Shown here piece by piece: positions 1 to 24,970 of a DNA stretch of 25,845 nucleotides. The notes below the pieces were generated by a model, which saw nothing but the letters and a program-made list of their open reading frames with translations, searched no databases and was not told where the DNA came from. Every line of letters begins with the position of its first letter. Position 1 is the stretch's first letter. The DNA comes from a virus: positions 1-25,845 of the IMG/VR virus record IMGVR_UViG_3300032296_000038; one strand, given 5' to 3'. Made by a program: the position numbers and the translations under genes.

Positions 1-811
1 AGGTAAACTGATCCCCGTATGGCTCAGCCAGCGTGCCAGAATCTACACCCCATCTGCGCCCATCGTAGTCTGAGAACGGAGTGATCTTGAGCTGGTGCAG
101 GTGGCCAGTAACGATTGACCTACCTGACTTGAGTGCATTGTTCCATGTACTGTGGACACCGTTGTGCCAGCGATGCTTGACGATCAATGAGTCATTGATG
201 TCTACTCTCCACCCTGTGTGCCAGCCAGGGAAGTAATCCCACAGGTTGCTGAACTCGGACAGGTCTGGAGCATGGGCGGCAATGTAGTTAAACAAGCGCA
301 CGTCATGGTTGCCATATGTCCACAGTTTAGTTGCGTTCTTAGATGCGTTGGCTATCTCATGCAGTCGGTCTTGGCAGGCTTCAATCTCCTTCTTTGGGGT
401 CGGAGGTTCTGTACCCATCAAGGCAGGGAAGCGACTGATCCTAGCACCATCAAACACGTCGCCGTTGAGGATCAAAGTCTGCGGCTTGAACTCGGTTATC
501 AGTTTGACAAAAGCCTTGTGAGCTACCGTCTCCTCACCTGGCCAGTAGTGGCAGTCACTAGCTATGAACACCATGCCAGTGTGTACCTTATGCTCTATGA
601 CCCTACGATTTTCAGGTATGGTTGTGACTTTATAGACAGTCTGCGGTGCATTGTAGGTTGGCAGGGATATGCCTAGGGTAGATTGGATCTTGGCCTTGCG
701 TCCAGCCAATGCCCTCACAGACATACCAACGTGTTCGGCAGCCAGCTTAGTGCTGCCAAACCGTTTCATCGCCGTAATGATTTCGTCGTCAGAGATTCTT
801 TTTAGTGCCAA
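1..811 (-). CDS. Calcineurin-like metallophosphoesterase with N-terminal HTH-like segment (C-terminus cut by window edge)
   Basis: About 270 codons are open from a TTG at 811 to the left edge with no stop, so the C-terminus is missing. The start codon is TTG with GGAAG a few bases upstream; the first in-frame ATG is 14 codons further in. The gene overlaps the preceding hydrolase by 23 nt. Residues about 5 to 40 (ITAMKRFGSTKLAAEHVG...) look like a small helix-turn-helix. The metallophosphoesterase motifs then follow in order: SDCHYW (metal-binding D-x-H), NGDVFDG (GDxxD), YGNHD (GNHD) and GHLH (GHxH). Members of this family hydrolyse phosphomono- or phosphodiesters with two metal ions. The substrate cannot be told here; nucleic acid or nucleotide processing is a guess prompted by the HTH. 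It sits last in the lysis-side cluster, after the holin and the Ntn-hydrolase. Confidence 0.85.
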   Translation of the reverse strand, partial: MALKRISDDEIITAMKRFGSTKLAAEHVGMSVRALAGRKAKIQSTLGISLPTYNAPQTVYKVTTIPENRRVIEHKVHTGMVFIASDCHYWPGEETVAHKAFVKLITEFKPQTLILNGDVFDGARISRFPALMGTEPPTPKKEIEACQDRLHEIANASKNATKLWTYGNHDVRLFNYIAAHAPDLSEFSNLWDYFPGWHTGWRVDINDSLIVKHRWHNGVHSTWNNALKSGRSIVTGHLHQLKITPFSDYDGRRWGVDSGTLAEPYGDQFT

Positions 812-1232
812 TTTTTCTTCCGCCTATTGTTATCACGTCTATCGGCCCGCGAGTAGCGGGGTCAAACAGAGCAGCGATTTCGACGGCTTCCTTGGGCGAC
901 TTGCCCAGGTGCATAGCCGCTAAGGCGTATGCTGATCCTGTGCCAATCGCATAGAAAGGTTCTTTGATGCAAGCAGGGATGATGGTACTTTCGTACACCC
1001 AAATGCCATCAGCTCTAAGCTCCATACATTCGACATCGCAGTCTGAATCTAGGTCTCCACCGTGCTCGATGGAGTTAAAAAATTTTAGGATCTGAACCCA
1101 ATCTCCGGCGGCTCCGGCTACCCCATCCTTCCACTGCCTGAGTTTACAAACGGAATAGTAACTACCTTCACCACTGCACATACTGTCAGCCGCTATCTGT
1201 TTATGGACTAGGCTGGCAGCTATGGTCGTCAC
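789..1232 (-). CDS. Proteasome beta/HslV-like Ntn-hydrolase
   Basis: This 147-residue protein starts with GTG, overlapping the holin stop as GTGA. Removing the initiator Met exposes Thr-Thr-Ile, the same N-terminus as HslV and proteasome beta subunits, where Thr1 is the nucleophile. Further matches are IAADS (the Asp17 position), VCKLRQWKDGVAGAAGD (Lys near the Lys33 position, then the G-x-x-G-D turn), and near the end FYAIGTGSAYALAAMHLG followed by EAVEIAALFDPATRGPI, the usual helix and last strands. Thr1, Asp15 and Lys29 in mature numbering would form the active site. No HslU-like or other ATPase is visible nearby. It could be a self-compartmentalised peptidase, an amidase-like relative, or a structural derivative. 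The fold call is made from motifs; substrate and oligomeric state are unknown. Confidence 0.75.
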   Translation of the reverse strand: MTTIAASLVHKQIAADSMCSGEGSYYSVCKLRQWKDGVAGAAGDWVQILKFFNSIEHGGDLDSDCDVECMELRADGIWVYESTIIPACIKEPFYAIGTGSAYALAAMHLGKSPKEAVEIAALFDPATRGPIDVITIGGRKIGTKKNL

Positions 1233-1405
1233 TTTTTCTTAAGCCACTTTTGAACCGTGTCGGTTTCGTATATACGAAAACCCGTCCAAACTATTGTGAA
1301 CAAAGCCGCAATGGACGGAAGGATCTCGGCTAGGGTACCGAGTACAGTTATGAACGACAGACCGTCGGCAACGTGTTTGGTAGTTTCGGATGCGTGATAA
1401 GCCAT
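1229..1405 (-). CDS. Holin (class II-like)
   Basis: A 58-residue protein with one clear hydrophobic stretch flanked by less hydrophobic helix: GLSFITVLGTLAEILPSIAA followed by LFTIVWTGF. The C-terminus is charged (IYETDTVQKWLKKK). This size and layout match the small holins next to fibre genes in T7-like podoviruses, which open the inner membrane at lysis. The start is placed at the ATG at 1405, four bases after the fibre stop; an upstream ATG at 1444 would overlap the fibre gene and add 13 non-conserved-looking residues. The stop overlaps the GTG of the downstream hydrolase. No endolysin is recognised next to it, so its partner is probably outside the window. Confidence 0.75.
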   Translation of the reverse strand: MAYHASETTKHVADGLSFITVLGTLAEILPSIAALFTIVWTGFRIYETDTVQKWLKKK

Positions 1406-5851: not shown

Positions 5852-7984
5852 TTAGACCACCGTCCAAGCTGAACCACTCGACACCGTGACCGTCACGCCT
5901 GTATCTACCGTAACTGGCCCCGCACTTAATCCGTTAAAAGTTGACGCAATCGTATAGCTCGTATCAATCGTCTGAGCGTTTACAAAGATACCGTTCTGCG
6001 CCACAGGAACTTCAGACTTCAGTTCACCTGTTGATGGCTTGTAAAGTAACTTGGCGTTGCCCGTGTAAATCGTTGATGCAGTACCCGTGGTCGCATTTAG
6101 GAACGCAGGGTATACGTCAGTTGCCGTACTTGTATCGTTTGTAATACTTACACTACCGCCTGGTGTAGCCCAAGACAGAGTCCCGGTTCCATTCGTTACT
6201 AACGCTTGGCCATTAGATCCGTCAGCGTTTGGTAGAGTCCACGACACGTTAGAGCCAATGGCCGCAGGAGCCATCAGAGCTACATAGTTATTCCCATTGT
6301 CGGTGTCCTCGTAAAGCTTGATGTCAGCTCCGCTAGACGATGTGCCAGACACAACCACGGAGCCAACAAAGGTTGGAGCCCCAGTATCATCTAGCGTTGC
6401 TGAGGAGTTCTGGATCAGCTTTCCGGTCGTTAGATCAAACCTAGCGAAGGCATTGTCGGTTGCGCTTGCTGGCCCGACTACATCGCCTGAGCCGCCACCG
6501 CCACCAGTTACCCACTCAACATCAGTGGCCCCAGTATTGACCGCCAAAACCTTGCCAGCGTTACTAGCCAGAGCAGGCAGAAGAGAATTGCGTACAGTCG
6601 CGCCGTTCTCTCCTACCCATGCCGTGCCATTACCTACAATGAACTGTCCGTCAGATGGCGTGATACCGGCAATATCTGCCAGGTAGCCTACGCTGACTAC
6701 GTCATTGGCAACTGTTGTTACGTCGGCAGCTATCCCTGCCACAGTAGTTACGTTTGCCGATATGCCTGCGACCGTATTGATGTTGGCGTTATTCGTGGCA
6801 ACCGTATTGATGTTAGTGCTATTGCCTGCTACGGCATTGATGTTGGTCGAGTTGCCAGCCACGCTAGTCACGTTGGCGCTGATACCAGCTACGGTCGTCA
6901 CATTGGCAGAGATACCCGCAACCGTATTGACGCTAGCAATACTGCCTGCCACCGTGCCAATGTCCGTGGCGTCTGCCGCCACAGACGTGACATCTGCGCT
7001 AATCCCAGCTACGGTTGCAACGTCAGCAGAAATGCCGGCTACTGTATTTACGTCGGCAATACTTGCCGCTACCGTTCCAATGGTGTCAGTACCAGTCAGG
7101 TCGGCAGACACTATGGTTATATCACCGCCAGTACCGAGTTCTCCAACCACCGCATTGACGTTGGCTATCGACCCACCAACAGCGTTGACGTTGGCTATGT
7201 TGGTCGATACGGTTTGGATGTCAGTTAAGTTGTTATATGCTGTGACCAGATAACCCGTAGGCACACCAGTGGCGCCAGTCGCAGGGTCGGCAATTGAGCC
7301 TAGGTCGTAGTTCCAATCCGTGCCGGCTAGGTCATCGCCGATCACGTCAATCTGAGTAATGTGGTCAGCTAGCGAGGAGATATCTGCCGATATCCCAGAC
7401 ACCGTCTCAATGTCGTCCTTGATGGCGTCCAAGTCCTCAATGGCCTGAGACACCCCGGACAGCTCCACGATCTCATTGACAATCGCAGCCACGTCGTTGA
7501 GGCTGGTAATGGTATTAGCCGTCTCAGGATTGCCATTGGCGTCAAAGGAGAGCACCTTGTTGGCCCTGCTTGCCGCACTTGGCAAGACCATATTGATCGT
7601 CGTTGGATCGGTTTGTGGAGCCCGTATTGACCTTGCAATAGCCTCGGCGTTTTGCTGGTCAAAGATGGTCAGGCTGTCTAGCTCGTCGTTTAGGACGCTG
7701 GCAAACAGGTCGCCGCCAGTAGTGAAGTCAGTCGTACGCTCTATCGTACGATCCCCGACAATGGTTATGGTGGAACCGGATGGGCTGGCCAACAGGGTAA
7801 TTGAGCCAGTGCCGTTAGTATTGATAGTAACCGTATAGTTGGTAGTCAGGGTTAGAAGCGTGGCTCCGTCATAAACGGCCACGTCCCCCTGATCCAAAAT
7901 CTCAAACGTAAACGCATACGGGCCTGTGCCTGAAGCGGCATAGACCACCCTGCGTGATACGTTAGAGATATCGTAATCTGCCAT
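5852..7984 (-). CDS. Main tail fibre, T7 gp17-like N-terminus with repeat shaft
   Basis: 710 residues starting MADYDISNVSRRVVYAASG with AGGAAC upstream. Residues 1 to about 130 match the T7 gp17 N-terminal attachment domain (GPYAFTFEILDQGDVAVYDG, RTTDFTTGGDLFASVLNDEL). Residues about 135 to 240 are mixed (VNEIVELSGVSQAIEDLDAI may be a coiled coil). A shaft of 10-residue repeats follows, then a collar (LLPALASN, VNTGATDVEW, GGGGGSGD) and beta-rich C-terminal modules (IKLYEDTDNGNNYVALMAP, VSWTLPNADGSNG) ending SSGSAWTVV. It attaches to the tail and carries or positions the receptor-binding tips; the shorter fibre genes downstream probably supply alternative tips. Confidence 0.88.
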   Translation of the reverse strand: MADYDISNVSRRVVYAASGTGPYAFTFEILDQGDVAVYDGATLLTLTTNYTVTINTNGTGSITLLASPSGSTITIVGDRTIERTTDFTTGGDLFASVLNDELDSLTIFDQQNAEAIARSIRAPQTDPTTINMVLPSAASRANKVLSFDANGNPETANTITSLNDVAAIVNEIVELSGVSQAIEDLDAIKDDIETVSGISADISSLADHITQIDVIGDDLAGTDWNYDLGSIADPATGATGVPTGYLVTAYNNLTDIQTVSTNIANVNAVGGSIANVNAVVGELGTGGDITIVSADLTGTDTIGTVAASIADVNTVAGISADVATVAGISADVTSVAADATDIGTVAGSIASVNTVAGISANVTTVAGISANVTSVAGNSTNINAVAGNSTNINTVATNNANINTVAGISANVTTVAGIAADVTTVANDVVSVGYLADIAGITPSDGQFIVGNGTAWVGENGATVRNSLLPALASNAGKVLAVNTGATDVEWVTGGGGGSGDVVGPASATDNAFARFDLTTGKLIQNSSATLDDTGAPTFVGSVVVSGTSSSGADIKLYEDTDNGNNYVALMAPAAIGSNVSWTLPNADGSNGQALVTNGTGTLSWATPGGSVSITNDTSTATDVYPAFLNATTGTASTIYTGNAKLLYKPSTGELKSEVPVAQNGIFVNAQTIDTSYTIASTFNGLSAGPVTVDTGVTVTVSSGSAWTVV
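6689..7216 (-). repeat. Decapeptide (30-bp) tandem repeat in the fibre shaft
   Basis: Thirteen uninterrupted 10-residue units are coded from 7078 down to 6689, such as TTVAGISANV, TSVAGNSTNI, NAVAGNSTNI and NTVATNNANI. Three more units lie at 7216 to 7127, separated from the main block by a short non-repeat segment. The consensus is roughly [NT]xVAGxSxN[VI]. The DNA units are diverged while the protein register is kept, which argues for selection on a fibrous trimeric shaft. The shaft fold (beta-helical or coiled) cannot be decided by reading. Confidence 0.85.
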
Positions 7985-22941: not shown

Positions 22942-23370
22942 TCAGACCCTCGACATCATTAAGTAATCTACCCCGTCCACGCCGTATTTGCGTAAGACCC
23001 CGTCGCACTTAAAGCCTATGGCATGAGCCCACTTCTCTGCGCGCTTATCCGTAGTTCTAACGGTTAATTGGATACGGTGCAATCCCATAGATATCTTTGC
23101 GATATCCATTACCTTAATCCCAATGCGCGTAAGGGTTACAGGGATTGTTCTTACCTTTTCATCTGGCATTAACCATGTCTCTGCGACACCTTCCCAGATA
23201 GACACAAACCCAAAGATGGCCACGGGTTCCATGTTTAGGAAGGCGGTTACTGCCGGCCCCATCCTGGCCTGTGTTTCTAGTAGACCTGGTATCTCGTCCT
23301 TGGTTGCCAGCACAGTCACATCCTCTGACTGTATGGACATCCTTTCGGCGTGATTAACCGAGAAGGGCAT
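22942..23370 (-). CDS. T7 gp13/GNAT-like protein (142 aa)
   Basis: The start is set at ATG 23370 (AAAGGG nine bases upstream), 40 bases after the terminase stop. An ATG at 23442 is open too but would overlap the terminase and add residues of shadow-like composition. The C-terminal half has the GNAT look: FGFVSIWEGVAETWLMPDEK, then GLHRIQLTVRTTDKRAEKWA and HAIGFKCDGVLRKYGVDGVD. The usual acetyl-CoA loop (Q/R-x-x-G-x-G/A) is not visible. That agrees with the T7 gp13-like group, which is virion-associated and probably not an active acetyltransferase. T7 gp13 is 138 residues, close to this length. Confidence 0.72.
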   Translation of the reverse strand: MPFSVNHAERMSIQSEDVTVLATKDEIPGLLETQARMGPAVTAFLNMEPVAIFGFVSIWEGVAETWLMPDEKVRTIPVTLTRIGIKVMDIAKISMGLHRIQLTVRTTDKRAEKWAHAIGFKCDGVLRKYGVDGVDYLMMSRV

Positions 23371-23410
23371 AAAAAACAGCCCTTTGCGTTTGTTAGCTTG
23401 GTTTAGTCGT

Positions 23411-24970
23411 TCAGCGAGAACCGAACACGTCAAACTCGGCATTTACCACCGTCTGAGCTACGCGGGTATCCGCGCTCAATGCACTCTTAGTCATACGCCT
23501 ATGCTCGCCCCCGCCAAGGAGAAGATACCCAAATGCGTCGCCAACGTGCGAGTGTTCATTTTTGTTTGGTGCATCGCGGAATCTTTCTTGCCCCGCACCA
23601 ATCGCAATACGCTTAAAATGATACCCGCCGGCAAGGGCTTTCCGGAGGAGCTTGCATTGCTTGTTCACAATGAGACCAGGCTTGCCATTGATCAGTCTTT
23701 GCATGGGCGCGGCAGCAGCTTCACGTCTAACCTTGAAGTCGTTGCTATGTGTAGGCTGGGCTCTAAGACCTAGAGTGCGCAGATGGTCAAAGGCTGTTAC
23801 CTCGTAAATCGCATCTCGTTGCATACCAGCCGGGTCACCCCAAAGCATAATCTGGCAGCTAGGGAATCTGGCGTTTAGCTCAGCCAAGAGCTGCTGACCA
23901 AACCTTTCTAGTCCCATGTCGAAGGTAACAATTTCGTGGATCACTACCCACCTGCCATTGTTGAGCCTTTGGCCTATTACCGCAGCTGGGGTAAGACCAA
24001 AGTCTAGCCCAACCTGAAGCGGCAAGGCCGGGTCAAACTCCACGTCGTCTGACATCATATTGTCGTCGTACTCTGGCCAGACTGGCCTGCCCTCTTGGAC
24101 GTAGGTGTACTTACCTTCGGCATAGCACTTGATCCAATCTAGATTCTTGCCCAGAAGCATCTGCTGATAGTAGCCAGCTGGAAGATTGTCTACGTTTTCT
24201 GCCCTTGGGTTTATTTTCCACCAGCGGCCAGAGGCAAACACATGGTCATTGGCTTCTGGGTTTTCTGGCAGGTCGTCAGAGGAAACCTCGACCACGCCAC
24301 CTGGCTGCTTAAAAAATGACCAGCCGTATTGCCCGGTCAGCTTTTCCTTTTCTGCCAAGCGGAACCACCAATGGTCGTCATCCATTGGGTTTGTATCCAT
24401 CCAGATACCGTGCCAGCTAGCTCCACCATCTCGCTTTGTCGGGTATCGACCAACCCGGTGAGTCAGCCCGTCGATCACAGCCTTTGGTAGTTCTCTAGCC
24501 TCGTTGACCCAGGCGCCTGTCAGCTCCAAGGACAGAAGCTTACGCACGTCCTTTGGTTGGTCTAGGGCTAGGAATATAACCTCCATGTCTATACCGGAGG
24601 CGTCTCCCCTGGATGGGAGGCGTATATGGTGGGTAATCGGCGGCGTCCAGAGCATCGGCCCAAAGGTGTTTTCTGGAAACAGATCAAGCCAAGTCTTGAT
24701 CGTTGTGGTCTTGAGCATTGGGTACGAGTTACGCACCACAGCCCATCGCGAGTACCTTATTCCATCAATCGGACTAGGCTTTTGCTGGACGGCTTTCATC
24801 ATTACCTTGGCCGCACAAGCATAGGATTTGCCCGAACCTACTGGCCCCATCAGACCTTGAACAAAGGCGCTAGACTGGATGAACTTATAGACTTCTGGGG
24901 ACTTAGAGAAGTTTAGGTTTAGCCCAGTTACCGGCAGTTCTTTAGAACTTCTTTCTTTAGTCTTAGCCAT
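23411..24970 (-). CDS. terL: Terminase large subunit
   Basis: 519 residues. Walker A is GPVGSGKS at residues 42 to 49. The Walker B/catalytic region is ELTGAWVNEARELP, and the coupling region MDTNPMDDDHWWF. The RNase-H-like nuclease has VGLDFGLTPA (first Asp), LWGDPAGMQRD (second) and HSHVGDAFGYLLLG (third). The gene packages DNA into proheads through the portal, using ATP, and cuts the concatemer. It lies upstream of the head genes, not at the end of the late operon as in T7. No small-subunit gene is recognised in the window. The start overlaps the upstream membrane-protein gene by 8 nt. Confidence 0.95.
   Translation of the reverse strand: MAKTKERSSKELPVTGLNLNFSKSPEVYKFIQSSAFVQGLMGPVGSGKSYACAAKVMMKAVQQKPSPIDGIRYSRWAVVRNSYPMLKTTTIKTWLDLFPENTFGPMLWTPPITHHIRLPSRGDASGIDMEVIFLALDQPKDVRKLLSLELTGAWVNEARELPKAVIDGLTHRVGRYPTKRDGGASWHGIWMDTNPMDDDHWWFRLAEKEKLTGQYGWSFFKQPGGVVEVSSDDLPENPEANDHVFASGRWWKINPRAENVDNLPAGYYQQMLLGKNLDWIKCYAEGKYTYVQEGRPVWPEYDDNMMSDDVEFDPALPLQVGLDFGLTPAAVIGQRLNNGRWVVIHEIVTFDMGLERFGQQLLAELNARFPSCQIMLWGDPAGMQRDAIYEVTAFDHLRTLGLRAQPTHSNDFKVRREAAAAPMQRLINGKPGLIVNKQCKLLRKALAGGYHFKRIAIGAGQERFRDAPNKNEHSHVGDAFGYLLLGGGEHRRMTKSALSADTRVAQTVVNAEFDVFGSR

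Follow-up and report, generated by a model that had tools for sequence, protein, structure and literature searches.

A predicted PPH-family proteasome-type hydrolase in the lysis region of a T7-like phage and its recurrent neighbourhoods in other phages

A fragment of a T7-like phage, referred to here as the window (25,845 nucleotides, positions 1 to 25,845 of the IMG/VR record IMGVR_UViG_3300032296_000038), carries a gene whose product seems to belong to PPH, a phage family of proteasome-type Ntn hydrolases already described in 2021 by Fuchs, Alva and Lupas (PMC8665760), and which opens a lysis cassette in these T7-like phages. The favoured reading, to which a probability of about 0.55 can be given, is that the gene product would be an ATP-independent threonine peptidase, made late, that trims or removes small or unfolded proteins, most likely structural or assembly proteins of the phage. 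As far as sequences and a predicted structure can reveal them, the fold, the catalytic residues, the selection acting on the gene, the absence of HslU and the position in a late module are in place. The original prediction had regarded the protein as an unusual enzyme in a late phage operon; the late position was confirmed, but PPH is a published and widespread phage family. The useful addition lies in the recurrent head-completion and lysis neighbourhoods of PPH, which are new here, none having been reported in the description of the family (PMC8665760).

A selectively maintained gene with a proteasome-type active site

The PPH gene occupies positions 789 to 1232 on the minus strand, running from 1232 to 789 with its stop included, and encodes 147 residues from a GTG start; its first codons, GTG-ACG-ACC-ATA, specify Met-Thr-Thr-Ile, with the Thr of codon 2 as the predicted mature N-terminus. 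The original prediction had named no strand, and its reading frame is correct once the minus strand is supplied; the MTTI start, the Asp (Asp16), the Lys (Lys30) and the GTGSAYALAA segment (residues 97–106) that it listed are all present. Coding on the plus strand of the same interval was ruled out by stops throughout. The open reading frame is genuine, a phage gene kept by selection, and a chance match is excluded by its similarity to phrog_1040 ("peptidase HslV family", E 2.4e-26), by 13 close relatives on viral contigs, by matches in 444 phage records at E ≤ 0.01, and by purifying selection, with dN/dS of 0.05–0.15 over 17–49 synonymous changes in eight comparisons with relatives on viral contigs.

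Thr2, Asp16, Lys30, Gly43, Gly97 and Gly99 are invariant in 48 of 48 non-redundant PPH relatives, a count that is slightly favoured for Thr, since the starts of the relatives were chosen partly by a following Thr, with every row of the alignment nonetheless showing Thr in that column. Asp124 is kept in 46 of the 48. In the alignment with HslV, the residues Thr2, Asp16, Lys30 and Gly43 correspond to Thr1, Asp17, Lys33 and Gly47 in proteasome numbering, and Gly43 would represent the oxyanion-type Gly. The proposed conservation of Thr1, Asp and Lys thus holds across the family, and loss of Thr at mature position 1, which was looked for among the homologues, did not occur in any of the 48. A propeptide is absent, the start codon directly preceding the Thr, and the frame is closed just upstream of the PPH start in four relatives (L001, L002, L004 and L022).

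A compact predicted HslV-like fold

Searches of the PDB with a ten-sequence PPH family profile retrieved HslV (3e-9), the human 20S beta5 subunit (2.8e-8) and BPH (1.8e-7), and phmmer with the window protein found BPH as its sole sensible match (E 0.04). Single-sequence searches of Pfam and NCBIfam with the window protein alone gave no match; the comparison with PF00227 that had been proposed as a check therefore failed for this protein by itself and succeeded for its relatives, 23 of 47 of which match that model at E ≤ 0.1 (best 2.2e-7). Profile alignment by hhalign to Escherichia coli HslV reached 96.5% probability over 100 columns, with a single long gap of 19 residues at about positions 68–86 of HslV.

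The AlphaFold2 model of the monomer, with a mean pLDDT of 90.9 and a pTM of 0.85, adopts an HslV-like fold, as had been anticipated. Foldseek against the PDB placed HslV at the top (E 1.4e-8, TM 0.73), with BPH also among the top matches, and against a viral library it returned phage proteins, some of them annotated as proteasome beta or HslV. Model and Foldseek agree on a proteasome-like beta-sandwich core, and the model has one helix (residues 45–57) between strands 37–43 and 67–73, where HslV has two. Alignment and model together show a predicted HslV-like fold contained in 147 residues from which helix H2 is absent, and PPH ranks among the smallest proteasome-type subunits. The claim of a proteasome/HslV-type Ntn hydrolase is supported by PHROG_1040, the PDB profile search, hhalign and the Foldseek placement, and profile searches keep the protein inside the Ntn superfamily.

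The window protein has a length near 140 residues (147), the core fold, the catalytic residues, no H2 and no propeptide, all features of PPH. Its assignment to the family is made on these features and on PHROG_1040, taken as a stand-in for the sequence cluster of the PPH authors.

Genomic neighbourhoods and candidate roles

On the minus strand of the window, the genes for TerL, portal (labelled head-tail adaptor by PHROGs), major head protein, tail tubes, internal virion protein and fibres follow one another. A 166-aa protein (22942–23442, minus strand) resembles the phrog_308 internal virion protein and, weakly, acetyltransferases, and a tail-fibre-like protein (5852–7984, minus strand) contains many repeats of the type VAGISANVTTVAGIS. 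After the fibres come a 58-aa protein with a single hydrophobic segment (1229–1405, minus strand), whose stop shares 4 nt (GTGA) with the start of PPH, then PPH, and then a calcineurin-like metallophosphoesterase with an N-terminal HTH-like segment (2–811, minus strand; PF00149, E 9.6e-7; phrog_221, E 6.5e-22), which overlaps the end of PPH with its start and runs off the window. The 58-aa protein had been called a holin from an open reading frame at 1229–1444, for which an ATG at 1405 is the better start; it has one hydrophobic segment and no above-threshold match in either PHROGs or Pfam, and only its position is holin-like; the label is plausible and unproven. In the window clade, and likewise in a distant relative (L062:1924-3195), PPH is followed by the HTH-like metallophosphoesterase, a pairing that may thus predate the clade.

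The sister contig L005 extends beyond the end of the window and encodes a protein of 161 aa whose hydrophobic segment is C-terminal, one of 167 aa with weak holin similarity (phrog_6637) and a T4-type lysozyme (PF00959, E 1.9e-36), the lysozyme lying about 1.9 kb downstream of PPH in sister phages. The slot before PPH is filled by non-homologous small membrane proteins, mostly with a 4-nt overlap with PPH: the 58-aa protein in the window, a 53-aa protein in L001:267-425, a phrog_462-type protein in L027:2846-3076 and a recognised holin in L037:7721-7945. These downstream lysozyme and weak-holin genes and this membrane-protein slot are the basis on which PPH is placed at the opening of the lysis cassette.

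In other phages, local profile searches and annotations revealed the order MCP-Ad1-PPH-Hc1-Ne1 in soil siphophages, in betaproteobacterial prophages, in Erwinia phage Gungnir39 and in Vibrio phage 1.131.O. Among neighbours scanned against PHROGs, Ad1 lies upstream of PPH in 10 of 32 cases and Hc1 downstream in 7 of 31, counts that describe the neighbourhood rather than rates because the sets were hand-chosen and a few members reach one or two genes further, among them the Ad1 of L090, L081 and L095 as well as four genes of the Hc1 set that are second downstream. The window clade and Guernseyvirinae have a lysozyme close to PPH, which in Guernseyvirinae stands upstream of holin and endolysin; in the T4-like phage KP13-26, the lysozyme near PPH is similar to those of tails or to endolysins, and its gene is possibly not one for lysis. 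Mapped on a tree of 74 rows, the head-tail label requires at least five changes and the label for lysis at least four on starred branches, which speaks for repeated association and not for a number of independent gains, since losses count among the changes, some branches are long and the bootstrap is not fully settled. Elsewhere, PPH lies beside an HNH gene in relatives of DSL-LC04, beside phoH/nrd in T4-like phages, and in other contexts in phiCbK and EL. In the DSL-LC04 clade, the HNH endonuclease gene and the start of PPH share about 26–35 nt (L015:19589-20026, L031:3431-3853 and L041:7601-8023). A universal link between PPH and lysis is ruled out, as the context varies by lineage, and because this context is not uniform PPH may serve some general function outside lysis and assembly. 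The genome scan yielded only eight bacterial loci, too few for more on hosts.

In the favoured reading, host methionine aminopeptidase would expose Thr1 of the propeptide-free protein, and the subunits would then assemble, the helices H3 and H4, through which the rings of HslV and of the proteasome contact each other, being kept. The assembled enzyme would act as a threonine peptidase without ATP; made late, by co-translation with the lysis genes in this phage and with those for head completion in others, it would trim or remove small or unfolded proteins of the late phase, most likely structural or assembly ones. No activity, oligomer or substrate has been reported for any PPH in the literature found, and no experiment on PPH function was found in the literature after 2021. 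A broader proposal, that a mini-proteasome subunit lacking a propeptide serves several unrelated phage lineages as a late protease of assembly or lysis, located between head-tail adaptor and head-closure genes or heading the lysis cassette, is put forward tentatively and should be regarded as doubtful.

The neighbourhoods also bear on narrower roles. PPH could possibly, though with low probability, be a dedicated processing protease of virion assembly that cuts or clears connector, scaffold or tail-completion proteins; the MCP-Ad1-PPH-Hc1-Ne1 order, the Ad1 and Hc1 counts and the repeated head-tail label argue for this role, but the gene lies in the lysis region of the window phage and of Guernseyvirinae, numerous relatives show different neighbours, a cleaved substrate is not known, and small genes often drift inside late operons. 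It is unlikely that PPH sets the timing of lysis by degrading the small membrane or antiholin protein encoded next to it: the 4-nt overlap in the window clade, the holin of L037, the holin-endolysin genes of Guernseyvirinae and the lysozyme downstream in sister phages are consistent with such a factor, but the adjacent membrane proteins are not homologous, PPH elsewhere occurs without lysis neighbours, and overlaps of 4 nt are common in phage operons, PPH having one with Ad1 too.

Docking of PPH on the host HslU ATPase, which would redirect HslU into a hybrid protease, seems quite unlikely; an association with host HslU had been among the possibilities raised in the original prediction. HslV is among the nearest solved relatives of PPH, and the HslU model detects its target in control genomes, among them those of E. 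coli and Caulobacter, which some PPH phages infect; nevertheless, PPH does not reach the cut-offs for HslV orthology and lacks the segment at about positions 68–86 of HslV. In HslUV this segment, helix H2, lies on the HslU-docking side, and its absence therefore argues against the hybrid. A non-protease Ntn enzyme, such as a ligase or amidase, is very improbable; connectase exemplifies the same fold turned into a monomeric ligase (PMC8665760), but the helical S3/S4 insertion of the connectase type is absent from the PPH model.

Returning to the late, ATP-independent peptidase, the Ad1-PPH-Hc1 and PPH-holin-endolysin neighbourhoods recur in sequenced isolates (Gungnir39, Vibrio 1.131.O and SE2), which makes the question of function approachable with simple active-site mutants.

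Comparison with named proteasome-type systems

PPH shares with HslV (ClpQ) the fold, the catalytic residues, the TTI start and the GSG-x-YAxxAA segment. However, it lacks the 19 residues of helix H2 and stays below the cut-offs of HslV models, the NCBIfam HslV model being unmatched by the window protein and reached by relatives at 5.6e-5 at best, under the cut-off. HslU was found in 0 of 14 PPH-bearing phage records by a search that does detect it in control genomes, in agreement with the original remark that no regulatory ATPase is visible; HslV orthology is ruled out, given the unmatched models, the missing H2 and the lack of HslU in these records. With the proteasome beta subunit (PF00227), PPH has the superfamily and the catalytic core in common, whereas it has neither propeptide nor alpha subunits and is about 50 residues shorter. 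BPH (5ovs/5ovu), which functions without a known unfoldase (PMC8665760), is the nearest single-sequence match in the PDB, albeit at the modest phmmer E value given above; it is longer (about 200 aa) and carries H2 as well as a long acidic pore loop.

The closest correspondence is with PPH itself as described in PMC8665760, whose authors found neither an AAA+ partner nor an informative genomic context. The window protein and that family have in common a length of about 140 aa, the absence of a propeptide, the Thr1/Asp/Lys/Gly set, the lack of H2, a phage origin and the lack of an AAA+ partner, and they differ in nothing essential. With DSL-LC04 providing its nearest named phage relative, at about 53% identity, the window protein would represent a new sub-branch of PPH in T7-like phages.
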